Positions 7,804 through 29,151 of a stretch of DNA of 29,294 nt are shown here, piece after piece. The notes under the pieces are model-generated. The model worked only from the letters and a program-made list of their open reading frames with translations, made no database searches and was not told the origin of the DNA. Position 1 is the stretch's first letter; every line of letters begins with the position of its first letter. The DNA comes from a virus: positions 1 through 29,294 of the IMG/VR virus record IMGVR_UViG_3300042355_000858; one strand, 5' to 3'. The translations under genes and the position numbers were made by a program.

Positions 7804-8498
7804 GGATTACCATACCACTCGGTTGCCTGGAATGCGTGGAGCCTGGCGCTGTACAGGGCCGAGCTAGTCTCGGCGAATACGAACAACTGAACCAGGCATT
7901 GCGGCACGCCAGACGCGGCTCCTCCGATGTCGATCGGAGTGCCAGTCACGGTGATGAATGGCGCCGCCTCGTCGGCGGTCAAGGCAATCATCCGGTCCCA
8001 CCCGATCGTCCCCTGGGACTTGCCGGTTGCATATATGGGAGTCGTGCTGTTGACGTTGCTCGTAGTCGTCCACACCGAGTCGGTAGGGATCAGTCCGGAG
8101 ATCGCGTTCTCAACAGTCGTGAGCGGATCCGTCGGCGCTCCGAACCTCGACAGCACCACGGAGAAGTTAGCAGCGGCCAGCACATTCTCGGTGGCACCGC
8201 CGACGATGACGCGCACACGGTACGAACTGCCATCCTCACGCAGCGCAATCGGGAACGGCGCCGTCGTCAGAACGTTTTTCCACGATGTCGAGTTGGTGAA
8301 GTAATACGACTCCTTCGCTGGCCCGATGGAGCGCGACACGTAGTTGGCGCGCACCTGGCCGTGAATGTCGGCGTAGTGGTTGGTGTTGTTCACCAGGATC
8401 CATCGCGTGGCCTTGTCGCCGATGGGCCGATATGGCGCGTTGAATACGTCCGATGCCGTGTGACGAACTCGGTACTCAAGCTCGCTGGATCCGCTCAC
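7800..8498 (-). CDS. Tail structural protein
   Basis: A 232-aa protein with a GTG start overlapping the stop of the large tip gene (GTGA). It has a beta-rich pattern: W-I-L-V-N-N-T-N-H-Y-A-D-I-H-G, then S-Y-R-V-R-V-I-V-G-G-A and V-Q-L-F-V-F-A. No signal or membrane segment. Position directly after the 863-aa tip protein suggests a tail tip or fibre-attachment component. The family is not recognised. Confidence 0.6.
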   Translation of the reverse strand: MSGSSELEYRVRHTASDVFNAPYRPIGDKATRWILVNNTNHYADIHGQVRANYVSRSIGPAKESYYFTNSTSWKNVLTTAPFPIALREDGSSYRVRVIVGGATENVLAAANFSVVLSRFGAPTDPLTTVENAISGLIPTDSVWTTTSNVNSTTPIYATGKSQGTIGWDRMIALTADEAAPFITVTGTPIDIGGAASGVPQCLVQLFVFAETSSALYSARLHAFQATEWYGNP

Positions 8499-11086
8499 GA
8501 GAACACCTTTGCTTGGATGAAGCCGCCGCCCGTATTGATGGACTGGCTAGAGTCGGCCAGATAGGCGTGGAACTCTTGCTCAGCCGCGATGCCGTCGTCG
8601 GCAGAGTACCACCCCAGCACCCACGTACCCGTCGTGATGGCAGCCGCCGAGGTGCCGAATGTCACGCGCACCACGGAGCCCGTCACGCTCACCACAGCGC
8701 CCTTGACGAGCGAGCCCGTGCCATCGAACTCCCACACGCGCACGCCATATCCAGCGGCAAAATAGTCGCTAGCCGTCAGCGTGCCCATGTCCAGAGTCAG
8801 ATCCCATGTGTTGCCGCTGACGTTTACCTCGCTGAGAATCTGAAACTCTGGCACGTAGCCGGCGAGCTTGTCGGCGATGGTGATCCCGTGCAGTTTGACT
8901 TGCGGATCATACGGGCTCTTCTCGAACCCCGTCACCAGCATCGGCAGGTTCGACACGCCGAGCGTGCCCGTTGAGACGTCGGGGATGCGCGAGCTGGTGA
9001 CGTACACGACGTCGCCGTGTGCTCGAGCAGCGAAGCGGATATCAGTCGGGACAACCGTGTGCGCGTATGGGTAGGCGAAGAGCGCGAACTGCCTCCGCGC
9101 CGCCTCTACGACCTCGGAATACGACTCGGTGGGGACGATGAACGACTTGGGTTCGATCTTGATCGACAGCGGCCGAGGCGACATGCCGAATGCGGCGACG
9201 TCGCGCACCGTCACCGGCCTCTCTGCGTAGTCGTCGTCCTGGGAGCGATAGCCTCGCAGCAGAGTGACTTGGTTGGCCGTACCGCGCCCCATCGGCTGCC
9301 ACGACACATCACCTGTGGGCGACGAGATGACGTATCCAGTAGTCGTCAGCGTGCCGCTCACGATGGCGCCGGTGTTTGGAGGCTGCACCAGATAGAATCG
9401 GATCTGACCTGTTGCATTCAGCCCGAGCCCATAGCCAGCCAGTAGGCACTCTGGCTTGATGATGTCCATCAAGTCAGATGCGCCGAACGAGGTGTATCCG
9501 CGCCGGTTGACGATGCGGTCGGATATGGCCGGGAAAATATCGGGGAGCCCAGCCTCAAAGTCCGCCGTGCGAAGAGGCGGGACCGCTCCGAGATTCAGCG
9601 CCCCAGGCACAGCATCCACGATGCCTTTGAGGAAGTTTCCTAGACTGCCTGTGCCATAACTGCGACCAAAGCGGATCTCTGGCAGTAGCGCAGGAGTCCA
9701 CGCAAACAAAGTGCCCTCAGTCCTGTCCACGGATCGACTGAAGTCGATGTATCTCGTGGAGGCGCTGTAGCTGAGCACCGCATGATACGACTCGTCACCG
9801 CTGAAGGAGCCGAACTCCTTCCATTCGATCATGGCTCCTGTAAGGCCAGTCAGATCGATCCCGCCGCCGAGATAGATGCGCGTGTTTGGGTTCGTGCCCG
9901 CTGGTACTCCTGGACGTCCTAGGCGACTGAATCCGAAGATGCCTCGAGGTACGCCGCCTGCGCCCGGAGCCGACTCCGGTTGTGGATACCAAAAATACGT
10001 GGTGCCGGCGACGTACCCGCCCTCTACCGGCTCAGCGAACGGATCGTCCGCATCGTCTACCGGATACGGATTGAACACCGGCTCGATCGAGTTCGCGCCG
10101 GTTCTAGTCAGTCGTCCCACGCTGACGCGCACGTTCGCGCATCCCGTGTTAGCCAGCATCTCCAGATGCCACGACGAATCGCCGTCGGCCACGGCTGTCA
10201 TGCGGCATCGGTTGTTCGTCTCAAACGACGACGCCGAAATGGCGGCATTGATGTCGTCAATGAAGTCTTGGTTAGACTCCCAAAAACCGCGCAGGTTGAT
10301 CGGCAGGGTGCCAGAGATGGCATCCGACGAAAGCGTCAGATTGAAATACGAGTCATCGGGATAGTAGATGCCACGCGGTCGAGCTGAGTTGGCAATGTCC
10401 GCGTTGACGCTGCGCTCAAGGAGCACCGTCAACGGCTCGATGGACAGCGACCACGACGCGCCGTCGTACACCGGATCTTTCGTGACGATGCCGCGCCAGT
10501 ACAGCGTGCCGTTTCCCTGCGGATCGTCTGTCTGCTCGTAGCGGTACAGCCACGCTCTGCACCCCGCCATCGTCTGCGGGCGGTTGCTGACTTCGGGATA
10601 CCGAGTGTACCCTCCCGTGGATACGTAGTGCTTTTGCGGTGCGCTATCGAGCCGAGCCCTAGTGCAGCCCGTGAAGCGGTTGGGCGAGGTGCCGAGGCCC
10701 GTGTAGTCGATGGCTTCGCTGTCGAGCCACACGGTGCCGCTGGCAGGCCATCCCAACGCCGCCAGCGATGCCTGCACACGCATCGTCGCCGCGCTGGTTG
10801 CCATATCCGTGGTGAGCCAGGTGCGGAGCGACGGCCGCTGCCCGAACGACAGCGTGGCTCGTCCCAGGACGTCGGAAATCTTGCAGCTCAGCGACGAGAC
10901 CTCGGACTCCATCGTGAGCGGGTTGCTGATGTGCTTGACCTTGGCTCCACGTACCGAAAGGCCCATGTACCGCTTCGGCGTGACTGCGGCGTTCTCCATC
11001 GACTGATGAGTCACCCACGACTCGGGCCACCGCTCGATCAGCAGCCGATACGACAGCTCGCCGCTTCCTGTGACGGTCGAGGTCAT
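8495..11086 (-). CDS. Large tail tip / hub protein
   Basis: An 863-aa protein, the largest gene of the tail module, starting at the ATG that overlaps the upstream stop (TGATG). The N-terminal 250 residues carry short repeated beta units (L-S-V-R-G-A-K-V-K-H, T-V-W-L-D-S-E-A-I-D-Y-T-G-L, F-T-G-C-T-R-A) as in central tail tip proteins. Around residues 560-640 the text R-G-Y-T-S-F-G-A-S-D-L-M-D-I-I and G-L-G-L-N-A-T-G-Q-I-R-F-Y resembles hub domains. The C-terminal 100 residues look like a small beta domain ending in a fibre-attachment segment. No lysozyme-like catalytic pattern seen. Tail tip by position, size and composition. Confidence 0.65.
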   Translation of the reverse strand: MTSTVTGSGELSYRLLIERWPESWVTHQSMENAAVTPKRYMGLSVRGAKVKHISNPLTMESEVSSLSCKISDVLGRATLSFGQRPSLRTWLTTDMATSAATMRVQASLAALGWPASGTVWLDSEAIDYTGLGTSPNRFTGCTRARLDSAPQKHYVSTGGYTRYPEVSNRPQTMAGCRAWLYRYEQTDDPQGNGTLYWRGIVTKDPVYDGASWSLSIEPLTVLLERSVNADIANSARPRGIYYPDDSYFNLTLSSDAISGTLPINLRGFWESNQDFIDDINAAISASSFETNNRCRMTAVADGDSSWHLEMLANTGCANVRVSVGRLTRTGANSIEPVFNPYPVDDADDPFAEPVEGGYVAGTTYFWYPQPESAPGAGGVPRGIFGFSRLGRPGVPAGTNPNTRIYLGGGIDLTGLTGAMIEWKEFGSFSGDESYHAVLSYSASTRYIDFSRSVDRTEGTLFAWTPALLPEIRFGRSYGTGSLGNFLKGIVDAVPGALNLGAVPPLRTADFEAGLPDIFPAISDRIVNRRGYTSFGASDLMDIIKPECLLAGYGLGLNATGQIRFYLVQPPNTGAIVSGTLTTTGYVISSPTGDVSWQPMGRGTANQVTLLRGYRSQDDDYAERPVTVRDVAAFGMSPRPLSIKIEPKSFIVPTESYSEVVEAARRQFALFAYPYAHTVVPTDIRFAARAHGDVVYVTSSRIPDVSTGTLGVSNLPMLVTGFEKSPYDPQVKLHGITIADKLAGYVPEFQILSEVNVSGNTWDLTLDMGTLTASDYFAAGYGVRVWEFDGTGSLVKGAVVSVTGSVVRVTFGTSAAAITTGTWVLGWYSADDGIAAEQEFHAYLADSSQSINTGGGFIQAKVFS

Positions 11087-11893: not shown

Positions 11894-13402
11894 TCAGATG
11901 CTCCCCGCCGCGCTCACGGCTGCCTGCAGCTCGCGTCCTAGCTCGGCCTGCGTGCCCGCCGTGATCACAGGCGAGTTCCAGTTGATTACGACGTCTCCGC
12001 CCTGAGCGGCCTCGGCGCCACCTCCGGACTCGGGACGAGCCGGTGCGCTGGGAGCCGAGCCGATAGCAGCGGCGCCCACGCCAGTCGCGACCGCGATTGC
12101 AGTGAACGCCACGCCGGCTCCGATATGTGCCGCACCGCCTGCATAGTCGTATTTCGCGAACGATGCCGCAGCGTCGGCAAACTCTGTCGCCGCCTTCATC
12201 GTGGCGTATTGCGAGATCATCTCGAGGAACGCCTTGGCTAGTCCCTGGAACGCCTCCTCGGCGGTTTGTTCTCCTGTCGCGATAGCTGCCAGCGACTTGC
12301 CGAAGGCCATCGTGGCATCGCCCAGCAGGCCCATTAGCTCTCCATTTAGCGAGCGTCGGCGATCAAGACTGCGCTCCTCCTCGGCCTCTTGGTTTTCCTT
12401 CTCGGCTAGCTGGCCTTCGCGGATGCGCTCCTGTCGCTCGCGTTCCATCTCGGCGAGAGCTTCGTTGACTTCGCGTTGCCGCTCAAGCTCGGCGTCCTGA
12501 GCTTCGATTGCCATCTCTTTCAACGCCTCGTAATGCGCGTTCCGCTTCTCCTCGATCAGCGCATTGGCCTCGGCTTCGCGCTCGACACGCTCGGCTGCGA
12601 GTCGCTCCATTTCGGCGCCGATGTCGGCGATGTCGCGATTGCTCGCGCCGCCCTCGGACATCAGTTCCTCCACAGCATTTCTAGGCCGCTCAGCTCGTCC
12701 GCCGCCTCGTGCGCCTCCGCTTTCGGCGCGCCGTGGAGCGCCGATGGTGCGAGTCTCTTCTTCAATGTCTGAGCGTAGAGCTTCCTCCATTCGCGACAGC
12801 GTTCGAATGCGCTCTTCAAGGACCATCGCGCCGAGCGCATCTCCGCTGTCGCGCAATTCCACCAACTGGTCACTGAGCGACGTCAGCGTATTTCCAAGGC
12901 TAGTCAGTTCGTTGCGTCTAGAAGCAGTCGTCACCGATGCTAGGAATTGATCCATTGCCTCGGCGGCCGTGATAGCCGCGTCGCCTTCATCACGAATGGC
13001 GGATGTAGTCGATCGGATTTCTTCTCGTGCGTCGCTATGAGCGCTCGAAAGCGAAAGCATGCTTGACGCAAACCCAACGATACCGCCGACAACCGTCCCA
13101 GCGGGCCCCAGCATAGAGCCCATTGCGGCGAACTGAGCAGTAGCCCCAGCCACGGATGCCACGAGTCCCGCCGTTCGATCCGAAGAGCCAAGCGCAGACG
13201 TTAGAGACTGAATCGCCCCAGCGACTCCCTGGACGCGCTGAACCGTGCTCTGCGCTCGCTGAGCGAAGGTATTGAAATTGGCCGCCGCCGTGTCAGCAGA
13301 TGCTCCAACGCGCTGCACGCCACTAGATACTTCGCCTAGTTGGCGAACGGTTTGTTGGCTGCCATCAAACTCAACGCTGATTTCGATCTTCTCTTCAGCC
13401 AT
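11894..13402 (-). CDS. Tape measure protein
   Basis: A 502-aa protein. The N-terminus has the usual short strand pair (I-E-I-S-V-E-F-D-G-S), then a helical region, hydrophobic stretches at about 75-115 (G-L-V-A-S-V-A-G-A-T-A-Q-F-A, G-T-V-V-G-G-I-V-G-F-A), a long charged coiled coil at about 250-350 rich in Glu/Arg, and a second hydrophobic block near 425-455. The end is a small domain with V-V-I-N-W-N-S-P-V. This order is typical of phage tape measures, with the fold-back toward the tip at the C-terminus. At about 1.5 angstrom per residue it would set a short-to-medium tail near 75 nm; this estimate is inference. Confidence 0.8.
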   Translation of the reverse strand: MAEEKIEISVEFDGSQQTVRQLGEVSSGVQRVGASADTAAANFNTFAQRAQSTVQRVQGVAGAIQSLTSALGSSDRTAGLVASVAGATAQFAAMGSMLGPAGTVVGGIVGFASSMLSLSSAHSDAREEIRSTTSAIRDEGDAAITAAEAMDQFLASVTTASRRNELTSLGNTLTSLSDQLVELRDSGDALGAMVLEERIRTLSRMEEALRSDIEEETRTIGAPRRAESGGARGGGRAERPRNAVEELMSEGGASNRDIADIGAEMERLAAERVEREAEANALIEEKRNAHYEALKEMAIEAQDAELERQREVNEALAEMERERQERIREGQLAEKENQEAEEERSLDRRRSLNGELMGLLGDATMAFGKSLAAIATGEQTAEEAFQGLAKAFLEMISQYATMKAATEFADAAASFAKYDYAGGAAHIGAGVAFTAIAVATGVGAAAIGSAPSAPARPESGGGAEAAQGGDVVINWNSPVITAGTQAELGRELQAAVSAAGSI

Positions 13403-14361: not shown

Positions 14362-15621
14362 TCAGCCGAGGTGAATGCGGAACGGAGACTTGGCGACGTC
14401 CGTGGTCGTCACGCCGACGTCGGTATCGCGACGTCCCTTGAACATGATGACCTGAGCAGCCAAGCCAGCCGCATCCGCCTGGCGCTGCGGATTCAGAATC
14501 TGAATCGTCGGGCAACTCAGGATGACAGCCGATCCAGCGGCAACGCCTGCGACGTACTGACAGGCCAGGTCGCTGCGGTTGTTCCGGTGGTTGAACCACA
14601 CATTGCTCTCGTATGGCAGCGTGAACGAGCCTTGAACCGGAGCATCCATGTTCCGCGCAGCCACCCATTGACGAATGGTGTTGATGCCATTCGGCGAGGT
14701 GTACGGAATGAAGGTAGCCTGCGGCTCAAACGCGAGCGCCGACACGTGGATCGACTGAGCGGTGGAGAACGTGGCAGCGCCGACAGTCCAGACCTCAAAG
14801 TTGCCAGTCTCACCGACGATCGGATTGTACGCGCTGTATGTCGCGGTGCCGAGAGTGCCAGTCAAGCTCGAGCTGGTTTCGTCGCTGGCATACCATCGAG
14901 CGGCCGTGAAGTTGAACGTCACGCGGGGAATCGCGCCGCCGGTCAGGTCGAGCGCGATGGTCATCCCGCCGACAGCCTGACAGCCAGTCAGCAGCCAGCG
15001 ATCGTCGCTTTCCAGGCCCTCGACGATGAACGCCATCGAGGTCGTGACGTTCTCGGTGAAATGGTACGTCGCCGCCTGATACAGCACGTTTCCGTTTGCG
15101 GGAGCGCCGCTGAAACCGCGCTTGAGCGTGATCGCGTCAGTCGAACGTGACTCGACCTCGCGCCACTCCACTACGCCGGCCGCATTGGCCCAGCCCATCA
15201 GCGTCCCAGGATTCGCCCAGCGCGTGCCCGTGCCTACGGAGACGTTTACGACGCTGGCCGTCGATCCCGTCGATGCAGCCGAGCCGGTGCCCAGCACCTC
15301 AGCGCCCATGACGTTCTTGAGTACGAGCCCGAGCGCCGACGTCACCGCAGAGACGCCCGAGGCAGCAGCCGTGCCCGTGGGCGCGAGATTGAGCTGGAAG
15401 CTCAGCGTGGCGCTGCGCTTGCCGAGAACGCGCTCGCGGCCCTCGAGGCGGCTCTGCACGAGCTGGCCGGGATCCAGCTCATCGCGAGTCACGGTGACAG
15501 TCGCCGAGCCCTCGACAATCGGGAGATCGGTGAAGGAGCCAGCGGAGCCCGAGGAATCGGCCCCGAACGTGGCTTCCTGGAACCCACGGATGCGCTGTAC
15601 GGAATGGACTTCGATGCTCAT
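14362..15621 (-). CDS. Major tail tube protein
   Basis: A 419-aa protein with an ATGA start overlap. It begins I-E-V-H-S-V-Q-R-I-R-G-F-Q-E-A-T-F-G, then an E-G-S-A-T-V strand, as in tail tube proteins that open with a 'Q-E-x-x-F-G' segment. Later beta segments include A-T-L-S-F-Q-L-N, R-V-T-F-N-F-T-A-A-R-W-Y and S-V-x-x-N-V-S-V-G. The protein has low charge and is placed just after the terminator-like gene and before the chaperones. Its length is above that of simple tube proteins, suggesting an extra domain (about residues 290-400) exposed on the tail surface. Confidence 0.75.
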   Translation of the reverse strand: MSIEVHSVQRIRGFQEATFGADSSGSAGSFTDLPIVEGSATVTVTRDELDPGQLVQSRLEGRERVLGKRSATLSFQLNLAPTGTAAASGVSAVTSALGLVLKNVMGAEVLGTGSAASTGSTASVVNVSVGTGTRWANPGTLMGWANAAGVVEWREVESRSTDAITLKRGFSGAPANGNVLYQAATYHFTENVTTSMAFIVEGLESDDRWLLTGCQAVGGMTIALDLTGGAIPRVTFNFTAARWYASDETSSSLTGTLGTATYSAYNPIVGETGNFEVWTVGAATFSTAQSIHVSALAFEPQATFIPYTSPNGINTIRQWVAARNMDAPVQGSFTLPYESNVWFNHRNNRSDLACQYVAGVAAGSAVILSCPTIQILNPQRQADAAGLAAQVIMFKGRRDTDVGVTTTDVAKSPFRIHLG

Positions 15622-20224: not shown

Positions 20225-20803
20225 GCTCGCTGCTCCTAGTGCGCGACGGCTCAGCCGGATCGCGTGCTGGCCGTCAATGAACGGCTTGTTGGTCAGTCCG
20301 ATGGAATCGAGCTGACAGGGGATAGGTTCGCCAGTCTCACGGTCTGCCGCGTCCCATACGAAGACGCCCGAGCAGAACCGGTACTCTCCACCGCGCACCA
20401 TATCGGCGGCACGCTGCGTCAGCTCCACCAGCGCCCACAAGCCATCATCCCGCAGCGCCAGATCGAGCACGTATCCAGCGGCCGGCGTAGGCTGGCCGTC
20501 GAGCGGGCGCAGACTCGCGTGGTCGTAGTCCACGGGAGGCGGCGTCTTGCAGGCACGCAAAGCCGCGATGCACTGAGCGAAGCTCTTGCGGTCCAGCGAG
20601 AACGCGCCGCTCGGATGGCCTTCCCATTCGCCATCCATCGCCACGTGGATCCACGTAGTGCGCTTCTCGGGATCTCCGCCGGTCAGCCCAACGTGCCGGC
20701 CAACACCAACGGTGGGCGCAGCCAGTCGCACGGTCTGAACCGGAGCCGCTAGAGTCTTGGTCTTGCCGGTTGCCTTGAGAGCGAACGCTTCAAGGTGGGG
20801 CAT
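19277..20803 (-). CDS. Mu gpI-like capsid protease with in-frame scaffold domain
   Basis: A 508-aa protein; I use ATG 20803, which starts seven bases after the MuF stop, not an ATG 21 codons upstream inside MuF. Residues about 48-190 match the Mu I protease (PF10123): W-I-H-V-A-M-D-G-E-W-x-G-H, a V-D-Y-D-H (91-95), E-Y-R-F-C-S-G-V-F, and I-G-L-T-N-K-P-F-I (168-176). From about residue 194 the protein turns into an acidic Ala/Glu-rich scaffold with a Glu-rich stretch (about 245-275), a disordered Ala/Ser/Pro linker and helical C-terminus. The protease matures the prohead, cutting scaffold; the same gene encodes both. See the internal start entry. Confidence 0.8.
   Translation of the reverse strand: MPHLEAFALKATGKTKTLAAPVQTVRLAAPTVGVGRHVGLTGGDPEKRTTWIHVAMDGEWEGHPSGAFSLDRKSFAQCIAALRACKTPPPVDYDHASLRPLDGQPTPAAGYVLDLALRDDGLWALVELTQRAADMVRGGEYRFCSGVFVWDAADRETGEPIPCQLDSIGLTNKPFIDGQHAIRLSRRALGAASMDIDKKDLMGKIDALASGATISAKQLEALVEFIKASAEEMPEVEVEIEAPEGEEKPEGEMAEMACKPGSKSASRSQASLAAAPPAMPSAPMAVPAVMPETAEAVAEAESGAESSQDAAAMLLTKLAELTGLDNASLMASLDANSEQIVAAFQGANGGAMPYSALSAKATAQEAVIAELTREVGAYRSEQAKRADAELVAEVEAHIAAGRILPGSRESFVALARKAPAEFRALAKSLPVRVPLAKEAPVVAPTSSSSSLAAANIDASHPRYVELHKAYSDPSNPYARTFPTDASARAETIDRLVRNHLRREQPITG
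20233..20237 (-). promoter_or_regulatory. Internal Shine-Dalgarno for the scaffold start
   Basis: AGGAG on the minus strand (20233-20237), spaced eight bases from the in-frame ATG at 20224. It falls at the boundary between the protease and scaffold parts, where an internal start would be expected. Confidence 0.65.
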
Positions 20804-20810
20804 GTATGTC

Positions 20811-22574
20811 CTAGCGTGGGTTCCCGAAACCGGGGTCCGGCTGAATATCGAGTGTTGCAGAGTCAACCACTCGGGTCAAATCCACCTGCTCCGCGCGTCG
20901 AGTGACTATGGTGCATCGGCAGTTGCTAGTGACGATGCCTCCTGCTACGAGCACGCCAGTCTCAGTCTGGAGGTCAAAAACGTGTCTCGTAGAATTGAAC
21001 CGTCGAACGGAGATGACTTTCTCCAACGCTACGACTCCGGCGCTTCCGTCAAGCAGCTTGCGACAGAACGCGGGATCGCTCGTCACGTCATCTGCCGTTG
21101 GCTCAAAGAGGCCGGACGCGAGATCAGAGGCAGGGCCGACGCGGAAAGGATCAAGTGGGCGCAGATGTCCACTGAGTCCCGTATGCGGCAAGTCGCCGCC
21201 GCACACGCCGCTACTCGAGGTGTTCCCAAGAGCGCAGAATCCGTCGCCAAGTCGATTGCCACTAGATTCGCTAGGCAATCGTTCATCGGCCACGGAGAAA
21301 CCGACATCGCTAATCTGCTGTCCGGCCTCGGGGTGAGGACGGTTCAGCAATACCCCATCTACCGTTACGGCGTCGATGTCGCCGCTCCAGAACTTCGCCT
21401 CGCCGTGGAAATCCTCGGGCACTACCCGAATCTTGGAACTGTTCCGTACAGGAAGCGCGTTGAACACATCCTCGGCGCTGGCTGGACGATTCTGTGGGTC
21501 GATCTCGCCGTCAAGAGAAACCCAGACCGGTGCCTGATGGCAGAGCACCTCATGGCCCTCGTGAATGAGATTCGCAGGAACGAACCCGTCCACGGTCGCC
21601 AATGGGTGGTTTGCGGTCACAGTGACCGACCGTCCGGTATCGGTCCTAAGCTCCACAAACTCACCGGTGTAGAGTGCCCTGACCGCCGCAAGGAATGACC
21701 CGGACACGGTAGTCTCAGCAACAAAGCATTGGAACCCAAGCGGAGGATTGTACCTAGTCCACCCTGGATCATCCTGACGGAACACGACTCGGTTCAACGC
21801 CGCGTGACTTGGACGAACGCGGTTGTCACGCGCGGTGCGGTATTCGACGTATGGACGCGCAGCGACGACGACGGGATCCGTCATCTGGCGCAAGCGCCCT
21901 GCGCCGTAGGCGCTTTGTGTGTTCGTCCTAAAAATGTTCTCTAGGTAGCTCGGCGACGTCGCCGTAATGCCGAGGTCCACCTCGCCATCGCGCACCTGAT
22001 CGACGAACGACTGCAGGCTCGCGCCGCTCTCTAGCTCGCGCTGAAGAATCTCCTGCACGCGCCGCACAAGCTCGTCCGACGTCATCCGCGACACGGAGAA
22101 CGCGCGGGCTTTGGCGGCATCGCTCAGGCGTCGATATTCGGCGGGGCTGATGAGCCGCCGTTCGCGGAAGGACGCAATCGCTTCCTCAAAAGGCAGGTTG
22201 AAAAACGCGTCGGGATCGATGCGTGCGACAGCCAGCGATGCCTTGCGCGGCAGGGACTCGGGCACCTCGACGGTGCGGACGAAGAGCTGTCCGCCCATAT
22301 CGCCCTTCATGAGCGTTTCATACAGAAGCGCCGTGAAGTCCTCATCGGAGGCGATGCGCTCACCCCATCCGGCCAAGTCGTCGCGCTCGATAGCGCCGGC
22401 CAGCGAGTCGAGCCAGCTTGATGCAATCGGCACCGCGTCGATGACGCCTGCCGCGCTGACTTGCTGCGGGACGCCGATGGTCTCTAGGGCTTGCGAACGA
22501 TCGTCATCGCTGAGCGCCCATAGGTCGGAGTAGCCTAGCTGCCCGCCTCGGTCTGGCTCTCCACCAGCTCCCAC
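20811..22574 (-). CDS. MuF-like head morphogenesis protein interrupted by an intein
   Basis: The precursor is 587 codons from my chosen GTG 22574, which overlaps the portal end by 40 bp; there is no clear ribosome binding site, so the start is uncertain. Residues before the intein carry MuF (PF04233) features: R-T-N-T-Q-S-A-Y-G-A-G-R, then Y-V-E-Y-R-T-A-R-D-N-R-V-R-P-S-H-A-A-L, and N-P-P-L-G-F-Q. The family's Cys-Arg-Cys motif follows directly after splicing (G-F-Q joined to C-R-C-T-I-V). The intein occupies 269 codons (283-551), so the spliced protein is about 318 aa. MuF proteins link portal and head assembly. Splicing restores the motif and is needed for an intact protein. An antisense gene on the plus strand overlaps the intein. 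Confidence 0.85.
   Translation of the reverse strand: MGAGGEPDRGGQLGYSDLWALSDDDRSQALETIGVPQQVSAAGVIDAVPIASSWLDSLAGAIERDDLAGWGERIASDEDFTALLYETLMKGDMGGQLFVRTVEVPESLPRKASLAVARIDPDAFFNLPFEEAIASFRERRLISPAEYRRLSDAAKARAFSVSRMTSDELVRRVQEILQRELESGASLQSFVDQVRDGEVDLGITATSPSYLENIFRTNTQSAYGAGRLRQMTDPVVVAARPYVEYRTARDNRVRPSHAALNRVVFRQDDPGWTRYNPPLGFQCFVAETTVSGSFLAAVRALYTGEFVELRTDTGRSVTVTANHPLATVDGFVPANLIHEGHEVLCHQAPVWVSLDGEIDPQNRPASAEDVFNALPVRNSSKIRVVPEDFHGEAKFWSGDIDAVTVDGVLLNRPHPEAGQQISDVGFSVADERLPSESSGNRLGDGFCALGNTSSSGVCGGDLPHTGLSGHLRPLDPFRVGPASDLASGLFEPTADDVTSDPAFCRKLLDGSAGVVALEKVISVRRFNSTRHVFDLQTETGVLVAGGIVTSNCRCTIVTRRAEQVDLTRVVDSATLDIQPDPGFGNPR
20969..20973 (+). promoter_or_regulatory. Shine-Dalgarno of the antisense endonuclease
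   Basis: GGAGG on the plus strand, eight bases before GTG 20982. On the minus strand these bases lie in the Asp-Leu-Gln codons of intein block F, so this short stretch carries both a conserved intein motif and a ribosome binding site. It decides the GTG start against upstream in-frame ATGs that lie in extein DNA. Confidence 0.7.
20982..21698 (+). CDS. Putative HTH + Vsr/DUF559-like homing endonuclease, antisense within the intein
   Basis: A 238-aa protein on the plus strand, entirely inside the intein. Residues about 11-45 form a helix-turn-helix (F-L-Q-R-Y-D-S-G-A-S-V-K-Q-L-A, then V-I-C-R-W-L-K-E-A-G) as in resolvase-type or NUMOD-like DNA-binding domains. A charged linker follows (46-104). 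Residues 105-175 resemble the nuclease core of Vsr/DUF559/EDxHD enzymes: E106-T-D-I-A, V-Q-Q-Y-P-I-Y, Y-G-V-D132-V-A, L-A-V-E143-I-L-G-H-Y, and G-W-T-I-L-W-V. The acidic pair D132/E143 is the probable metal site. The C-terminal 38 residues (201-238) are antisense to intein block B. It probably cuts intein-less MuF alleles. The domain call is by eye. Confidence 0.75.
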   Translation: MSRRIEPSNGDDFLQRYDSGASVKQLATERGIARHVICRWLKEAGREIRGRADAERIKWAQMSTESRMRQVAAAHAATRGVPKSAESVAKSIATRFARQSFIGHGETDIANLLSGLGVRTVQQYPIYRYGVDVAAPELRLAVEILGHYPNLGTVPYRKRVEHILGAGWTILWVDLAVKRNPDRCLMAEHLMALVNEIRRNEPVHGRQWVVCGHSDRPSGIGPKLHKLTGVECPDRRKE

Positions 22575-24493
22575 GGCCGGCGTAAAGGGCGCTCCGGGGG
22601 CGCACCTCCGGACGCATAGGTAGTCTGCGACGGGGCCGCTGCTAGCTGCCCAGCGGGCGCAGACGCCACCACGACGGGCTCGGCGGGAGCCTCGACGGGC
22701 GCGGCGCGCTCCATAAAGGTCTTGCGAGCCCAGCGCCATTGACGCTTGGGATTCGGCCCGTCCAAGTCGCGGAACCAGACCGCGCTGTCATCGACGGCGA
22801 CTACCTCGAGGCGGTGGCCGTCCTCGGTGTCTGTCCATGTCTGGCCCGACTCGGGCTCGGCGCGGCGCGCTGCCTGGATGACTGGCGCGGCCTCGGTGGG
22901 CGCAGCGCCATCCGTGGGCGTCGGTGGCTGTAGCGCGGACTGTGCCTCGACCATCTGGATCGCCTCGGCCTCGGCGATGGTCGGGAAGCTCTTGCGGATA
23001 GCGACGACAGCCGCAGCGGGAGCCATCGTGCCAGCGGTGACAGCCGCCAGCAGCTCGACAAGGCTGGCGATCTGAGCGCCATTCAACGCGGTGTCGGCGA
23101 CAGCCTCGGGCGCCGCAGACGCGGGCGCATCCATCGGCGCAGCCATCGGCGCAGCGGCGAACATATCGATGCGCTTGGCCTTGGCGTTGCCGCCTCGAGC
23201 CGCGCCCCACTCGGGCAGTCCGTCGCGCTTCCGCAGCTCATCGACCGTCACCGCTCCGACGTCGATGAGGACGTCGCTCGGCTTGGGCGCAAGCTCCTCT
23301 TGAAAGCGCGTGGCGATGACAGGCAGCGCCGGCATCGTCCCGCCGTAGCGCCACAGGTTGAACTCCAAGAATGGCCGCACGAGATCGCGCGAGACCGTGG
23401 CCCACATGGACGATGCGGACTTTTTCAGTCGCGGGTGGATCGTCGTGCTGGCCTGAGACTCAGCCGCAGCGCGCGAGCCGATTGCGCCGATGTCGGTGTT
23501 CAGCGTCGAGCCAAGTACGGCCTTTGTCATGCCGTCATCGCACCACGACTCAAGCGCAGTCCACACCGACGACGAACCCTGCGCCGAGGGATTCAATAGC
23601 TGGATCTCCATGTCCTTCGACATGACAGCCACGCCCGACGCGCTTAGGTTGCTCAGGTTGTCGAATAGCTCTTGCCTTAGCGGCTGAGCCGTCTCGTTGG
23701 GATACTTGCCGATGGCGCGCGGATTCCCGGCGACTTCAGCGCCGTTGAGCCAGTATGCCGCCGCAGTCCACTTGACCCACCAATACCGAACGCACGCTCG
23801 CAGTAGTCCCGACGCGATGGTGTAGTCGGGAATGACGCGCGGCATGTGCACGACAAACTTGTTCTCGCGCAGCGGCAAGCCCGTCAGTCCGATCTGCGGG
23901 TTTGCTCCCGGCGAGTTTGCCAGCCTGCCGTCGTCCCACAGATAGGGCTTGATGAGTCTGTCGAAGCGGAACCGATGCGGCTCGAGGATCTCCATGCCCT
24001 CGGGCCACACCCACGAGCCACGGACTCCCCACATGATCTCCAAGACGGACCAGCCGACAAACTCAGCGTCAAGGATCGCGTCGAGATACGTGGGCAGATC
24101 CGACAGACTCGCCAGCATCCCGGCGACGTCCTGGGCAGCTAGCGCGTCCGCCTGAGTCGGGCCGCCGGGAGCGACGTCATAGCCAGCGCCAGCGACGGGA
24201 TCGACGCGAGTCCCCCGCAGCGCCAATAGGTGGCCGTCCTGGTACATGCGGCGGGTGAGCCGCGCCCAGTCCGTCGTGGCGCCGCTGGCCTCGGCCGTCT
24301 GCATCCAGCCCGCGACGTCCGCCCAGCTCAGCGTGCCCCACTGTCCGCCCTGCCAGCGCGTCAGCGTGGCCGGCGGGGCATCGCGTCCGGCGTAGCTCGA
24401 GGGCGCCAGCTCGACTACAGGCCCGCCGATGGGCTGCGCTGCTAGTGCGCGCTCGGCAGCGCGAGCGGAGAGATGTCGTCGGCCTGCGCCCAT
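22535..24493 (-). CDS. Portal protein, Mu gp29 / DUF935-like
   Basis: A 652-aa protein from ATG 24493; a further in-frame ATG lies 17 codons upstream, but the M-G-A-G-R start looks more natural. The DUF935 features run from about residue 80: M-Y-Q-D-G-H-L-L-A-L, L-D-A-I-L-D-A-E-F-V-G-W-S-V-L-E-I-M-W, I-L-E-P-H-R-F-R-F-D, F-V-V-H-M-P-R, then W-V-K-W-T-A-A-A-Y, A-V-L-G-S-T-L-N-T and R-D-G-L-P-E-W-G. The last about 200 residues are a Pro/Ala-rich, poorly conserved extension with a T-D-T-E-D-G-H-R-L-E-V strand region. The portal forms the DNA gate of the head. Its end overlaps MuF. Confidence 0.85.
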   Translation of the reverse strand: MGAGRRHLSARAAERALAAQPIGGPVVELAPSSYAGRDAPPATLTRWQGGQWGTLSWADVAGWMQTAEASGATTDWARLTRRMYQDGHLLALRGTRVDPVAGAGYDVAPGGPTQADALAAQDVAGMLASLSDLPTYLDAILDAEFVGWSVLEIMWGVRGSWVWPEGMEILEPHRFRFDRLIKPYLWDDGRLANSPGANPQIGLTGLPLRENKFVVHMPRVIPDYTIASGLLRACVRYWWVKWTAAAYWLNGAEVAGNPRAIGKYPNETAQPLRQELFDNLSNLSASGVAVMSKDMEIQLLNPSAQGSSSVWTALESWCDDGMTKAVLGSTLNTDIGAIGSRAAAESQASTTIHPRLKKSASSMWATVSRDLVRPFLEFNLWRYGGTMPALPVIATRFQEELAPKPSDVLIDVGAVTVDELRKRDGLPEWGAARGGNAKAKRIDMFAAAPMAAPMDAPASAAPEAVADTALNGAQIASLVELLAAVTAGTMAPAAAVVAIRKSFPTIAEAEAIQMVEAQSALQPPTPTDGAAPTEAAPVIQAARRAEPESGQTWTDTEDGHRLEVVAVDDSAVWFRDLDGPNPKRQWRWARKTFMERAAPVEAPAEPVVVASAPAGQLAAAPSQTTYASGGAPPERPLRRPWELVESQTEAGS

Positions 24494-24689
24494 GGCAAAG
24501 ACTAGCACGCCGAGCCCGCTAGTGCGCCATGCTGACACGGACAACGTGGCGCAGTGCGTAGCCTGGTTCGCGCATCAAAGACAAAATCCGCAACGATTTC
24601 GCGCGGCATAGCCTGGCATCTGGGATGCAATAACACCTCGCATCGCTGCACAACGCGGCGACGACAACCGACGCACAAGGAGCCGCACC
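24494..24689. promoter_or_regulatory. Divergent intergenic region between portal and plus-strand genes
   Basis: About 196 bases separate the leftward portal gene from the rightward 164-aa gene, so promoters for both directions are expected here. The octamer TAGCCTGG occurs twice in direct orientation (24559-24566 and 24609-24616), exactly 50 bases apart, a spacing that could suit an operator pair. I see no clear -35/-10 pair. A strong AAGGAG (24677-24682) lies seven bases before ATG 24690. Confidence 0.4.
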
Positions 24690-25184
24690 ATGACCAGCTA
24701 CTACCGCATCACGAACCGCACCTCGGGCCTCAGCCTCGGACTCTACTGGGGCGAGACTCCCGACGACGCCGTCGAGGCGATGGACCGCGCCGCGGGCTAT
24801 CGCTCCTCGCGGGACGCGGCCGAGGCGCTCGGGGAGACCGCAGAGTCGCTCCGCGCCGACCTGATCGTCGAGCCGGTCGCCGAGGGCGACGGCGAGGACG
24901 AGGACGAGGGCGAGGACGAGGGCGAGGCCGACGAGGCCGACGAGCACGCGATCCGCTGGATCGCCGAGCGCATGGTCGCGGCCGACCGCACATCGGGCGA
25001 CTGCGCGCCCGAGGTGCTGGACGACCCCTCGGCGGGCGACGGGAGCGGCTGGGACTACGCCGCGATTGAGGAGGTCGCGGAGCGCATCGGAGCGGCGCAC
25101 CTCGTCCGCTACGGGGTGCGGCGCGACGAGGTTCTGCGCGCCTACGCCGCCGCGTGGCGCGAGGCCGTCGAGGCCGTCCGATGA
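24690..25184 (+). CDS. Hypothetical acidic protein (plus-strand module, gene 1)
   Basis: A 164-aa protein with AAGGAG seven bases upstream of ATG 24690. The first 60 residues have a mixed alpha/beta look (Y-Y-R-I-T-N, D-D-A-V-E-A-M-D-R-A-A-G-Y). An acidic low-complexity run of Glu/Asp/Gly is at about 66-86, then helices follow, including A-I-R-W-I-A-E-R-M-V and L-R-A-Y-A-A-A-W-R-E-A-V. The acidic run is encoded by GAG/GAC repeats. Read against the structural operon, so likely expressed at another time. No family recognised. Confidence 0.65.
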   Translation: MTSYYRITNRTSGLSLGLYWGETPDDAVEAMDRAAGYRSSRDAAEALGETAESLRADLIVEPVAEGDGEDEDEGEDEGEADEADEHAIRWIAERMVAADRTSGDCAPEVLDDPSAGDGSGWDYAAIEEVAERIGAAHLVRYGVRRDEVLRAYAAAWREAVEAVR

Positions 25185-25423
25185 GCCGCGCCCGCCACTC
25201 CATTCTGATCCAGCTCGCCGACGGCCCGACGGGCGCTCAGCAGCGCGATGCCATCCTCCGGTGGGCTCGGCACCGCGTGGAGCTGGGCCAGTCCGCCACG
25301 CCCACGGCTGCGTTGCGGACCGTGGTTCTTGCTGCCGCCGACGCATCCGACCTCGACGCGCCGCCTAGCGATGCGTGGGCTGCGGGACGGGAGGCCGCGC
25401 GTAGCAAGCGAAGCGCGACGTAG
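25181..25423 (+). CDS. Hypothetical 80-aa protein (plus-strand module, gene 2)
   Basis: ATG 25181 overlaps the stop of gene 1 as ATGA, placing the frame with confidence. The protein is helical and Ala/Arg-rich, with H-S-I-L-I-Q-L-A-D-G near the start and R-D-A-I-L-R-W-A-R-H-R-V-E-L in the middle. The two Trp and clustered basic residues could point to nucleic-acid or protein binding, but I recognise no domain. Confidence 0.6.
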   Translation: MSRARHSILIQLADGPTGAQQRDAILRWARHRVELGQSATPTAALRTVVLAAADASDLDAPPSDAWAAGREAARSKRSAT

Positions 25424-25706: not shown

Positions 25707-25749
25707 GCGCCCCGAGAGGATCGATCCCGGCTCGCTACCGGGAGGGCGC
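25707..25749. terminator. Hairpin between convergent genes
   Basis: Between the end of the plus-strand genes and the end of the leftward DUF115-like gene lies a nested inverted repeat: outer arms GCGCCC/GGGCGC and inner arms CCCGG/CCGGG around a seven-base loop that contains the minus-strand TAG stop. Its position suits a terminator for both directions, but no T-run follows on either strand. Confidence 0.4.
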
Positions 25750-26919
25750 CTCTAGCCAGCCGCGCAGCTCCGCGCACGCCTCGAGCGTCGCGCGCGACAT
25801 CGGCCCGACCGTGCGTGAGCCGCGCCCCTGCATCTGCCTCAGCAGCCGCATCCGTGCGCCGACGCCGGCGAAATCCGGCAGCGGGCTACCTGCTAGCAGC
25901 TCGGGCACATCGGCGATGGCCGCGCCGTCGAGCACGGCACGCGCCACGGCCTCGGCACGACCGATCTGGGCGTGGGCCTCCTCGAGCAGCGTGCGCGCGT
26001 CCTGGGGGCTCGTAGACGCCTCGGCGTGGCCCCATCCGGCGATGGCCACATCGGGCTCGCTCTGGTAGCAAACGACGTGCGGATGGCGCGCAGCCCATTG
26101 CGCCAGCCATCGGCGGTCGTCCTCGAGGGTCTCCGGTGCCCACCTACGCGATCCGTCCACCGCCTCGAGCGGGATCATCCGCTCGACCCGCAGCGGAGGA
26201 CGCTGGCCCGATGCGGCGTGCAGCGATTCCTTCGCTTCCAGGCCGGCGATGTGCCCGACGTAGTGATCGACCGTGCCATCCGGATGCGTGGCCGCCTCGA
26301 CGCCCGTCAGCCGAATATCTTGCCAGTCAGAGCCCGACGCATAGGCCCGCCCATCGGGGGAGTACGCGCGCGAGCATCCCAGCAGCTCGACGCGGCTGCA
26401 TCCCCACATCTCGGCGATGGCAACAGCCGCGGTGACGTTCGATGTTCCTCCGTATACCGGTTCTTCTGACAACAGTTCCGAGATCCAGAAGTTTTGGAGC
26501 GATGCAGGGATGAACCACATCACGGGGATACCCAGCTCGCGACACGTCGCCGCAAATGCCGGGTGCACGCCAATATCCAGCAGAGCCGTGGTATCCCGAT
26601 GCGGCCACAGCTCAGCAGCGCGACGTAGCTGGCCGCTCATGTCGATCGACTCTCGACACAGGATGTACCTCGGCACATGCCCCCGACGCGCGAGCGGCAC
26701 AAGCGCCGAGTTGACGGCGATGGTCGTAAGCGTCGTCGGGATGTGGTCCGGCAGAGTCCAGCCAGCGCCGAGCACGAGATACGTGTGCGCCGGCATACCA
26801 GGCGGACAGCGCCTCACGCGGGGCTCGCGCATCATCGCCTCGAGGTTGACGGCCACGTGATGCGCGATGTGAGGCGCCTTGAAAATCGCAAACGCTTCGT
26901 CTCGTCGTGCCTTGTCCAT
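25735..26919 (-). CDS. Maf/DUF115-like putative glycosyltransferase
   Basis: A 394-aa protein with its ATG overlapping the upstream stop (TGATG); in-frame codons further upstream lie in the previous gene. A Rossmann-like start Y-L-V-L-G-A-G-W-T-L (47-56) leads to I-A-V-N-S-A-L (67-73) and P-R-Y-I-L-C-R-E-S, then V-Y-G-G-T-S-N-V-T-A-A-V-A-I-A (155-169), and G-C-S-R-V-E-L-L-G-C-S-R-A-Y-S-P-D-G-R-A-Y-A-S-G. This resembles Maf proteins (motility accessory factors, PF01973/DUF115), which transfer nonulosonic acids to flagellin. NeuB and cytidylyltransferase genes lie just upstream, so a transferase for the same sugar is a reasonable guess. The C-terminal 130 residues are helical and unassigned. 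Confidence 0.65.
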   Translation of the reverse strand: MDKARRDEAFAIFKAPHIAHHVAVNLEAMMREPRVRRCPPGMPAHTYLVLGAGWTLPDHIPTTLTTIAVNSALVPLARRGHVPRYILCRESIDMSGQLRRAAELWPHRDTTALLDIGVHPAFAATCRELGIPVMWFIPASLQNFWISELLSEEPVYGGTSNVTAAVAIAEMWGCSRVELLGCSRAYSPDGRAYASGSDWQDIRLTGVEAATHPDGTVDHYVGHIAGLEAKESLHAASGQRPPLRVERMIPLEAVDGSRRWAPETLEDDRRWLAQWAARHPHVVCYQSEPDVAIAGWGHAEASTSPQDARTLLEEAHAQIGRAEAVARAVLDGAAIADVPELLAGSPLPDFAGVGARMRLLRQMQGRGSRTVGPMSRATLEACAELRGWLEAPSR

Positions 26920-27116
26920 CAGTGCCACACCCGTCCATCCGACGACTTGCCTTGTTCGCGCAAGGCACGCTCGAGACGCTGCCACGCACGCTCTGTCTCG
27001 ATGCGCTCGCGCTCCTGATGAACGCCGCGCCAAAACTCGCGATGAGCCGCGCGCCATCGGCCAGACATCAACAGCCGAGCTACCCGGCGCCCCATTGATC
27101 GCAATGCATGGTTCAT
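26919..27116 (-). CDS. Hypothetical 65-aa basic protein
   Basis: ATG 27116 overlaps the methyltransferase stop (ATGA), and the stop overlaps the next start (TGATG), so the frame is secure. It is strongly basic (M-G-R-R-V-A-R-L-L, R-E-F-W-R-G) and helical, with R-E-R-I-E-T-E-R-A-W-Q-R-L-E-R-A-L at the C-terminal half. No domain recognised; it may be a small partner of the flanking enzymes, by position only. Confidence 0.6.
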   Translation of the reverse strand: MNHALRSMGRRVARLLMSGRWRAAHREFWRGVHQERERIETERAWQRLERALREQGKSSDGRVWH

Positions 27117-28306
27117 TTCGCCGCCTTGTTCAGTTGGTGCACGAGCCGATTCAGCACGTGAGCCAGCGCCGCGCCGATGCGCTGGGATTCTTGAGCCTGG
27201 CCGGCTCTGAGGCCACGCATCCACATATCGGCGTCCCAGCTAGGCCGAGTCTCGTGTGCCTGCTCCAATAGCCGCACGATGCTCGTCAACTCGCCGATGG
27301 CATCGGTGGCGCAAGCCCGCCACCGCACCAGTTCGTCTGCTGCGAAGTCCAGCGTGCCGCACGCCTCGACGTCGTCCGTGATTGATGCGCGCCAGTCCGC
27401 ATCCTCAAAGTCACGCATTCGCTTGATTGCAAGCTCCGTTGCCGCGCGCTCGCTCTCCCAAGCTTTCAGCTTGCCCACGACCTCTTCGGCCATCGGCCCG
27501 CCGTGAGGCTCATACGGCCGAGGGCCGCTGGAACCGCGCACGCCATACCCACACAAAACGGCTCCATCGTAGTCCGTGTGGACGTCATCCAAGCCCGCGC
27601 GATGCATCAACGCCGCCAGGGTATGCCGGCTGAAGTTGACCGTGTGCGGCTTCTGCAGAAAATGAGTCAGGCTCACATACGGGCGCTCGACGCAAGGCAC
27701 CTCGACGTAGACCATTCCGCCCTCGCGCACCTGGCGCACCATCGCGACCATATCCTCGACAGGACGCGCGAAATGCTCGACCACCTGCAGGGCGAAGGCG
27801 ACGTCAAAGCTGCCCTCGGCCTCGCCCGTGCTGGGGTCGTGGATGGGCACGCCACGCGCCAGCGCCTCGCCGGCCTTGCGCGAATCGCGCTCGAGCACGT
27901 ACACGCCACCGCCCAGCAGCTCGTGCATCGCGCCGGCCACGCTGCCGTCGCCGCTGCCCACCTCGAGGACGCGCTGTCCAGGCTCTAGCCCCAGGCCATG
28001 CACCAGCCGCCGCGCCGCGTGCGCCCCATGCCGCGTGCATGTCTCGGCGTAGCGCGCATCGTCGGGCGCGACCATCTCGTCGGTGGGCTGTCCGTCGTCG
28101 TCAATCCAGCGCTTCGGTAGGTCGTGGAACTCCCGCCGATACTCGCCCGAGGCGTAGTACACCGCGACGTCGTGCGGCGTGGCGTGCGGCACCGTCTGCA
28201 CGAGCGAGCACGACCGGCATGCCACCGTGACCATCGGCCCGGTGCGGCCCTCGTTGTGGACGTACACCGCATCAGTCAGCGGCGCATCGCACAGATGACA
28301 ACTCAC
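27113..28306 (-). CDS. SAM methyltransferase with N-terminal zinc-binding domain
   Basis: A 397-aa protein starting at GTG 28306, overlapping the NeuB stop as GTGA; upstream in-frame codons fall inside neuB. Cys pairs C3-x-x-C6 and C30-x-x-C33 form a probable zinc site as in Methyltransf_13-type sugar C-methyltransferases. The SAM domain has L-E-V-G-S-G-D-G-S (114-122), V-L-E-R-D-S, Q-V-V-E-H-F (174-179) and P-H-T-V-N-F-S-R-H-T. The last about 140 residues are helical (W-E-S-E-R-A-A-T-E-L) without an assigned domain. The arrangement suggests a sugar or nonulosonate methyltransferase acting in the cassette; the site of methylation is unknown. Confidence 0.75.
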   Translation of the reverse strand: MSCHLCDAPLTDAVYVHNEGRTGPMVTVACRSCSLVQTVPHATPHDVAVYYASGEYRREFHDLPKRWIDDDGQPTDEMVAPDDARYAETCTRHGAHAARRLVHGLGLEPGQRVLEVGSGDGSVAGAMHELLGGGVYVLERDSRKAGEALARGVPIHDPSTGEAEGSFDVAFALQVVEHFARPVEDMVAMVRQVREGGMVYVEVPCVERPYVSLTHFLQKPHTVNFSRHTLAALMHRAGLDDVHTDYDGAVLCGYGVRGSSGPRPYEPHGGPMAEEVVGKLKAWESERAATELAIKRMRDFEDADWRASITDDVEACGTLDFAADELVRWRACATDAIGELTSIVRLLEQAHETRPSWDADMWMRGLRAGQAQESQRIGAALAHVLNRLVHQLNKAAK

Positions 28307-29151
28307 GCCCACGACGTCCTCCGCATCGTCTCGATCTTGGCGCGCTCCTCGACGTCCACCGGACGCTCGGCTCCATACGTCAGCGCCGCCGACAACGCGC
28401 GAATCTCGCGCACCAATCGCATCAACTCCTCGGGCTCGACGCTGGCCGCCTGGTCGCTGCCCCATGCGCGACGGCTCAGCGTGATGTGCCGCTCGACAAC
28501 GGTGGCTCCCAGCGCCACCGCGCCAAGCGTGACGGCCTGATAGTCGGGCGACTCGTGCCCGCTGTAGCCCACCGGCAAGCCGTACCGCTGCCGCAGTTCC
28601 GACAGCACGCCAAGGCGCGCGGCCTCGGGACGATGCGGGTACACGCTGCAGCAGTGCATCAGAGTCACGCGCGCGGGCGTGGCATCCAGCACGCGCACGG
28701 CCTCATCGATCTCGTGCCAGCTAGCGCCGCCCGTCGAGACGTAGAGCGGGAGTCTCGTGTCCGCAGCCTGGCGCAGCGTCTCGTGGTCCGTGATGACAGC
28801 AGACGGGATCTTCAGCCACGGCACACGGAGCGAATGCAAGAACGCCACGCTCGGCGGATCGAAGGCAGACGCGCTCCACTCGATGCCAAGTCCAGACGCA
28901 GCACACGATAGCTGGGCGAACTCGACCTCGCCGAACTCTAGGCGTTGCTTGTAGTCTGGATACAGCATCGGGCCCCACGGAGTCGCGCGGCTCTGTAGAC
29001 GCATCGACGGTGGAATCGCTAGCTCCAAGTCGCGCTTCTGGAACTTGACAGCGTCACATCCGGCGAGCTTCGCGACACGCATCAGGTCCACGGCAGTCGC
29101 GACAGATCCGCTGTGGTTGATGCCGATTTCGGCGATGACCTTGACCCTCAT
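28303..29151 (-). CDS. neuB: Nonulosonic acid (NeuB-type) synthase, lacking SAF domain
   Basis: A 282-aa protein; ATG 29151 overlaps the upstream stop as ATGA. The NeuB signature is complete: A-E-I-G-I-N-H-S-G (7-15), A-V-K-F-Q-K-R (34-40), T-P-W-G (57-60), W-L-K-I-P-S-A (112-118), L-Y-V-S-T-G-G (136-142), M-H-C-C-S-V-Y-P (165-172), V-G-Y-S-G-H-E (194-200) and E-R-H-I-T-L-S-R-R-A-W-G-S-D-Q-A-A-S-V-E-P (220-240). NeuB enzymes condense phosphoenolpyruvate with a C6 sugar to make sialic, legionaminic or pseudaminic acid. Family members are usually about 330-350 aa and end in a SAF/antifreeze-like domain; here the protein stops after R-R-T-S-W, before that domain. The sugar made cannot be told from sequence. 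Confidence 0.88.
   Translation of the reverse strand: MRVKVIAEIGINHSGSVATAVDLMRVAKLAGCDAVKFQKRDLELAIPPSMRLQSRATPWGPMLYPDYKQRLEFGEVEFAQLSCAASGLGIEWSASAFDPPSVAFLHSLRVPWLKIPSAVITDHETLRQAADTRLPLYVSTGGASWHEIDEAVRVLDATPARVTLMHCCSVYPHRPEAARLGVLSELRQRYGLPVGYSGHESPDYQAVTLGAVALGATVVERHITLSRRAWGSDQAASVEPEELMRLVREIRALSAALTYGAERPVDVEERAKIETMRRTSWA

Follow-up and report, generated by a model that had tools for sequence, protein, structure and literature searches.

A MuF intein in a phage genome with a predicted homing endonuclease encoded antisense within its reading frame

Can the same codons encode an intein on one strand and its homing endonuclease on the other? This question is raised by a virus record of 29,294 bases (the window, meaning the whole stretch of DNA analyzed), whose minus strand carries head genes for a portal, a MuF protein, a head maturation protease and a major head protein. 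A first-pass annotation, made from sequence alone, proposed that MuF is interrupted by an intein and that a homing endonuclease is encoded antisense to it. Our analysis supports this interpretation: a mobile intein with a homing endonuclease encoded antisense within the intein reading frame is very likely the correct reading (probability approximately 0.9), with splicing, cleavage and expression being inferred rather than observed.

Arrangement of the locus and its two proteins

The features of the locus are as follows.

20811-22739, minus strand: MuF-like gene for a minor capsid (head morphogenesis) protein, interrupted by an intein (Phage_Mu_F, 2.1e-13; PHROG 220, 8.8e-44)
21729-22739, minus strand: MuF N-extein
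20922-21728, minus strand: intein of 269 codons, C1 to N269 with a +1 Cys (PHROG 15127, 8e-26; invariant residues; model with a Hint fold from the ends)
20814-20921, minus strand: MuF C-extein
20811-20813, minus strand: MuF stop codon
20982-21698, plus strand: antisense ORF for the predicted endonuclease, 238 aa, GTG start and TGA stop (sequence; conservation and purifying selection in homologues; model with helix-turn-helix and PD-(D/E)xK nuclease)
20969-20974, plus strand: Shine-Dalgarno sequence GGAGGT, 7 nt before the GTG, antisense to the block-F Asp-Leu-Gln codons (bias of the Leu codon CTC)
20982-20984, plus strand: GTG start codon, the reverse complement of block-F His249 (CAC; His codon bias across loci)
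20967-20984, minus strand: intein block F, HVFDLQ, residues 249-254 (alignments A2 and A8)
21606-21617, minus strand: intein block B, T38-A-N-H41, double-coding with the C-terminal part of the endonuclease (T38 and H41 invariant; both frames constrained)
21009-21110, plus strand: helix-turn-helix region of the endonuclease, residues 10-43 (HTH_58, 2.6e-5; model helices 10-18, 23-30 and 34-43)
21297-21410, plus strand: nuclease active-site region, with E106 at 21297-21299, D132 at 21375-21377 and E143 at 21408-21410 (invariant in 52 homologues; Vsr/I-Bth0305I fold)
21399-21413, minus strand: 'DFHGE' motif of the intein, lying antisense to the nuclease strand 'RLAVE' to 'I' (alignments A1 and A2)

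The intein begins CFVAETT, ends VTSN and is followed by Cys; it sits directly ahead of the Cys in the 'CRC' motif of MuF. The plus-strand ORF runs antisense to residues 11-249 of the intein with its codons aligned to theirs, such that intein codon position 3 is ORF codon position 1. The coordinates, the two frames and the exact register given in the first-pass annotation all held, as did its claim that blocks B and F are double-coding. The same pairing extends to the active site: in alignments A1 and A2 the codon for intein F107 is the reverse complement of the codon for catalytic E143, and the nuclease strand [hydrophobic]-[AS]-V-E that holds E143 is encoded by the reverse complement of the codons for the conserved intein motif DFHG[DE]. 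Pfam searches matched MuF (2e-13) and, below its curated cut-off, Intein_splicing (8e-5) on the minus strand, and HTH_58 (2.6e-5) and, also below cut-off, DUF559 (0.0087) on the plus strand. No sigma-70 promoter match was found for the plus-strand ORF, although phage promoters may differ. An intron in place of an intein was also considered and rejected, as there was no Rfam match in 20400-22300, even at an E-value of 5. Elsewhere in the window, several large ORFs have no PHROGs match at 1e-5: 1474-2928, 8498-11086, 11897-13402 and 14365-15621 (minus), as well as 24522-25346, 25738-27057 and 27116-28465, all minus.

By its residues and Hint fold, the minus-strand insert is a class 1 type intein; that it splices is inferred. 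Residues C1, T38, H41 and N269 are invariant in 43 homologues, the +1 Cys is present at nearly all loci and TIGR01445 matches 38 of the 43 members. In the structural model, both ends contribute to a Hint fold (end pLDDT mostly 85-98) that matches intein structures including 4oz6, 1am2 and 2imz at a probability of 1.0, with the whole-chain TM limited because the middle is unfolded. Residues 126-230 mostly have pLDDT values below 50, which predicts an unfolded segment. The intein frame has no LAGLIDADG or HNH Pfam match, as the first-pass annotation had claimed for the middle.

The plus-strand ORF encodes helix-turn-helix domains followed by a PD-(D/E)xK nuclease. Its AlphaFold model (mean pLDDT 79) has a core consisting of a helix, three strands, a helix and a strand, and the best fold matches are Vsr (Z 11.1), the I-Bth0305I catalytic domain (Z 9.9) and NGO0050 (Z 9.8). 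A PDB sequence search with the single protein gave only a weak helix-turn-helix match, and a family profile was needed to reach 3r3p (I-Bth0305I; E-value: 6.6e-6). MTES_1575 of Pfam matches 27 of the 52 family members. In the alignment to 3r3p, the first Glu and the VE strand align, while the column of D132 has no Asp in that structure. A fixed His-Asp pair was not seen in the family, the pattern of which is nearer to DUF559/MTES_1575 than to the EDxHD signature. Foldseek matches to Toxoplasma mitoribosome proteins were set aside, being read as a related nuclease-like fold and not as an indication of function. The fold, as predicted by the model, and the acidic triad (E106, D132 and E143) identify a Vsr/EDxHD-like PD-(D/E)xK nuclease; cleavage is inferred. 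The Vsr/DUF559-like nuclease core that the first-pass annotation had recognized on the plus strand is therefore borne out by both structure and profile.

When facing residues of the two models are compared, their pLDDT values are anticorrelated (rho -0.68, ten-residue means). The well-folded first half of the nuclease lies mainly opposite the unfolded intein spacer, and the unstructured tail of the nuclease (residues 214-238) lies opposite intein blocks A-B.

Conservation of the two frames and of the initiation site

Searches of phage records by tblastn with the intein and with the ORF converged on one set of loci, with hits on opposite strands in 110 and 91 records, respectively, mostly at 24-32% identity. 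Both the arrangement and the register are kept in about 130 relatives. At each of 25 reference loci examined in detail, a long antisense ORF crosses the intein in the identical register (25/25); these phages have Gordonia, Pseudomonas, Cronobacter, Vibrio, Escherichia, Salmonella, Klebsiella, Edwardsiella, Aggregatibacter and Idiomarinaceae hosts. A further 108 loci came mostly from scans of viral and genome contigs, for which smaller alignments were used because the broad alignments A1 and A2 contain no stretch conserved enough for collection scans. All 108 have an intein-profile match antisense to the endonuclease, and the register is zero in 113 of 113 matches. As this profile was built from inteins with a nuclease-antisense middle, a match to it is not in itself proof of an intein; splicing termini were therefore checked separately among these loci, and were absent from the Acinetobacter locus and from truncated contigs. 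The near-universal association with inteins is also partly built into the sample, since some loci were found with nuclease queries taken from intein antisense frames. Of ten diverse loci tested for the identity of the host gene, nine have the insertion in MuF. Where the intein is longer (about 316-329 residues), the added length mostly corresponds to an extra helix-turn-helix unit at the nuclease N-terminus. The family is mostly phage-borne, as a search of 369 genomes from one bacterial class recovered only the seed. Locus L032 was rejected as an example of a broken intein frame, the break being a frameshift relative to the near-identical L031 and possibly an assembly error. Separately, the MuF ORFs at L029:1751-4099 and L124:1697-4021 encode an ADP-ribosyltransferase-like domain after the intein (Pfam PF01129/PF03496).

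The decisive evidence for the antisense gene is this kind of comparison and not the openness of its frame. The first-pass annotation had cautioned that openness alone is weak evidence, and this held: based on the codon usage of the host exteins, 6.0 antisense stops are expected over the window ORF (P = 10^-2.85), and in the most GC-rich relatives, where just 1-3 stops are expected, openness is uninformative. For AT-richer phages, the corresponding P is 1e-8 or lower, down to 10^-13.

The two strands constrain one another in a manner that can be read from the substitutions. When close pairs are pooled, the overlap contains 280, 72 and 181 differences at intein positions 1, 2 and 3, with variation highest at position 1, the wobble position of the nuclease. 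The intein-only tail past the ORF start contains 5, 1 and 16 differences at these positions (Fisher p 0.001 for tail versus overlap), and in the exteins position 3 varies most. Of 15 pairs, 14 are more alike in the antisense frame than in the intein frame; within the overlap, for instance, the window is 97.9% identical to L007 in the antisense frame and 93.7% in the intein frame, and 69.3% and 63.9% identical to L009, respectively. Changes that are silent in the intein and alter the ORF (SN) occur in the overlap at 0.18 of the doubly synonymous rate (SS), compared to 0.99 in the exteins (z -7.8). Constraint is about equal on both frames in blocks A-B, and in the middle of the overlap constraint falls more heavily on the ORF than on the intein (NS 198 vs SN 89, p 2e-10). 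A naive pN/pS of 0.91 would indicate almost no amino-acid constraint on the intein middle; because NS/SS is 0.37 there (95% CI 0.25-0.55), this segment retains some constraint of its own and is perhaps not a pure shadow of the nuclease. Finally, synonymous shuffling of the intein codons, using the usage of each phage, produced antisense proteins far less alike than those observed (z 3.1-17.0, median 7, 136 pairs). These results show two conserved coding frames on opposite strands; in homologues the antisense frame stays open under purifying selection, the outcome that the first-pass annotation had required of its proposal.

A further signature lies in block F, whose consensus, H-V-[YF]-[ND]-L-[EQ], has the Shine-Dalgarno sequence and start codon of the ORF as its reverse complement. 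His occupies the start position in 61 of 70 distinct loci, encoded by CAT (an ATG start) in 55 and by CAC (a GTG start) in 6, versus a CAT:CAC ratio of 528:545 across the rest of these genes (p 2e-11). In one locus the codon at this position is Gln CAA, corresponding to a TTG start. The few members without the His (9/70) have to start elsewhere or else be inactive. Similarly, CTC, read as GAG from the opposite strand, encodes the block-F Leu in 51 of 64 cases (background 25%, p 1e-19). At L040, L042 and L085 this Leu is replaced, and AGGAG or GGAGG lies on neighboring Ser codons. We take such bias in both the start and Shine-Dalgarno codons as direct evidence of conserved antisense translation initiation. 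Conservation of the initiation site is shown, while expression of the ORF is inferred, as there are no RNA or protein data.

Signs of mobility and alternative explanations

A relative of the nuclease exists outside of any intein. In Acinetobacter phage BUCT629, MuF is uninterrupted and a homologous nuclease, annotated as a gene by the depositors, adjoins it on the opposite strand (L132, MZ712044.1, 1501-2394). This protein is 32% identical to that of Aaphi23 and its antisense frame contains 12 stops. The free-standing gene is a polymorphism of roughly 0.9 kb, present in 3 of 82 matching Acinetobacter phage records, with the other listed records keeping the flanks without the insert. A free-standing nuclease with a closed antisense frame indicates an autonomous mobile gene, the conservation of which is independent of an intein frame.

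Empty alleles and transferred inteins are both found. Two close relatives of the window (L135 and L136) have an exact empty site, with MuF 98% identical through the site. At the position of the Snoke intein, 136 Kagunavirus/Jerseyvirus-type records align to 80% or more of the joined empty site. Escherichia phage Snoke (L006) and Salmonella phage PST-H1 are 97.6% identical in overlap DNA and only 73.5% identical in the exteins, from which recent transfer is concluded. Escherichia phage KMB36 (L014, 1501-2394) and Snoke have MuF exteins that closely resemble each other, with antisense-endonuclease inteins at different MuF sites (TT^CRARDG and PN^CRST). Relative to L079, both L069 and L070 have a nonsense mutation in the endonuclease that is silent (a Ser codon) in the intein frame. 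Judging from sequence alone, L069 would be a natural endonuclease-dead allele of the kind predicted by a homing cycle. Recent transfer is shown, and empty alleles together with near-identical inteins in diverged hosts are as homing predicts; homing activity itself is inferred.

Based on these observations, we propose the following cycle. The minus strand would produce a MuF precursor that loses its intein by self-excision, as inferred from the invariant splicing residues and the fold. The plus strand would be transcribed separately to produce a helix-turn-helix and Vsr/EDxHD-like nuclease, using the ribosome binding site and start in the reverse complement of block F. This nuclease may then cleave MuF alleles that lack the intein, close to the point of insertion, and recombinational repair would copy the intein and nuclease gene together, as they are the same DNA. 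Sharing of the DNA would rest on a division of labor, with the end splicing blocks opposite the nuclease start and unstructured tail and the nuclease core opposite the unstructured spacer; for the most part this spacer seems to be an antisense shadow cast by the nuclease. As to origin, we can only speculate that a free-standing nuclease gene like that of Acinetobacter landed antisense in a mini-intein, in the single register keeping both frames open. It may then have recruited its start from block F and its tail from blocks A-B, leaving the spacer as a shadow of the nuclease core.

Three alternative explanations were considered. The first is that the antisense ORF is real and conserved but encodes a regulator or repair nuclease instead of a homing endonuclease. 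In its favor, a helix-turn-helix joined to a Vsr-like fold need not mean homing, and there are no cleavage data. Several observations make this alternative unlikely: I-Bth0305I, which both the profile and the fold match, is a homing endonuclease; the gene and the inserted element move as one exact unit, and empty alleles exist; and intein transfer is seen between diverged host genes.

The second is that the intein frame is the shadow, the insertion being merely an antisense nuclease gene whose peptide MuF tolerates or loses without splicing. The near-neutral naive pN/pS of the intein middle and its predicted lack of folding are consistent with this, and there is a precedent in ShiLan, where an out-of-frame HNH endonuclease is not accompanied by splicing domains. 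We consider it very unlikely for three reasons. First, little or no variation is seen at C1, TxxH, the C-terminal Asn or the Cys after it. Second, the intein-only tail varies normally at position 3 and blocks A-B are constrained in the intein frame. Third, the two ends form a Hint fold and most members match TIGR01445. The third alternative, a chance ORF from GC-rich codon usage with spurious nuclease similarity, draws support from the ease with which GC-rich DNA keeps this register open, but is excluded by the substitution classes, the synonymous shuffles, the AT-rich homologues, the Shine-Dalgarno and start codon bias and the free-standing homologue with its closed antisense frame.

Relation to known systems and significance

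The preferred reading, an intein with an antisense homing endonuclease, resembles several described systems without matching any of them. Like canonical large inteins such as PI-SceI, it would unite a splicing insert and a site-specific endonuclease in one mobile unit within a conserved protein motif. However, canonical large inteins carry an in-frame LAGLIDADG or HNH domain, whereas the protein here is separate, Vsr/EDxHD-like, encoded on the opposite strand and overlapping the splicing blocks. The first-pass annotation knew of no described system of this kind, a statement that must be qualified, as antisense endonuclease genes in introns and an out-of-frame phage endonuclease have already been described (PMC9548176, PMC11855218). 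Group I introns with antisense homing endonuclease genes include that of Didymium I-DsqI, in which the endonuclease gene likewise lies opposite the strand of the self-splicing element (PMC9548176). The I-DsqI gene is located in a peripheral ribozyme segment and is not antisense to a coding frame, whereas at the MuF locus both strands encode conserved proteins. The ShiLan insertion in a phage DNA methylase contains a hidden out-of-frame HNH endonuclease (PMC11855218). It is likewise a phage insertion whose endonuclease overlaps the translation of the host frame, with a GTG start near one end of the element. The ShiLan HNH gene shares its transcript with the host gene and is read in a different frame; no ribosome binding site could be detected and no splicing domains were found. 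The MuF element, unlike ShiLan, is antisense, with intact intein blocks and a Shine-Dalgarno sequence. The I-Bth0305I/Vsr-like (EDxHD) and MTES_1575/DUF559 nucleases have the same fold (Z 9.9-11.1) and an E..D..E core, and differ from the protein described here in its N-terminal helix-turn-helix repeats and antisense-intein context.

The open-access literature searched yielded no account of an endonuclease encoded antisense to, and overlapping, the coding frame of an intein. A preprint by Gosselin et al. (2025; 'Non-Canonical Architecture') reportedly surveys actinobacteriophage inteins and is cited for overlapping reading frames; it may describe the arrangement, at least for Gordonia phages, and it is possible that Gordonia MuF inteins are among those it includes. 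A bolder reading is that these loci constitute a widespread and previously undescribed phage intein family with a separate antisense homing endonuclease, mutual overprinting, and a ribosome binding site and start within a splicing motif. We favor this reading, if only by a narrow margin.

In public records, fragments of either strand are annotated as hypothetical proteins, or the intein alone is annotated, and the endonuclease was not named in any record viewed. Annotation is inconsistent at LC507823.1 (L134) 1521-2098 and in the Snoke record. Because most viewed phage records annotate just the longer MuF frame, the endonuclease family is mostly unannotated, even though it spans common phages of Salmonella, Escherichia, Klebsiella, Pseudomonas and Gordonia.

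Few conserved antisense double-coding genes have a known fold on both strands, and such cases are disputed. With an exact register and measurable constraint on both frames, the approximately 130 diverged loci provide a clean test case, and natural alleles exist in which one frame is broken by a change that is silent in the other. For inteins, the arrangement would offer a new way of being mobile, with an endonuclease that can be made on its own schedule and is swappable with free-standing relatives, and it suggests how inteins may gain or keep an endonuclease without fusion. Other inteins and introns are worth searching on the antisense strand. In this family, a selfish element appears to have packed two tools, a splicing insert and a probable spreading enzyme, onto opposite strands of the same codons.
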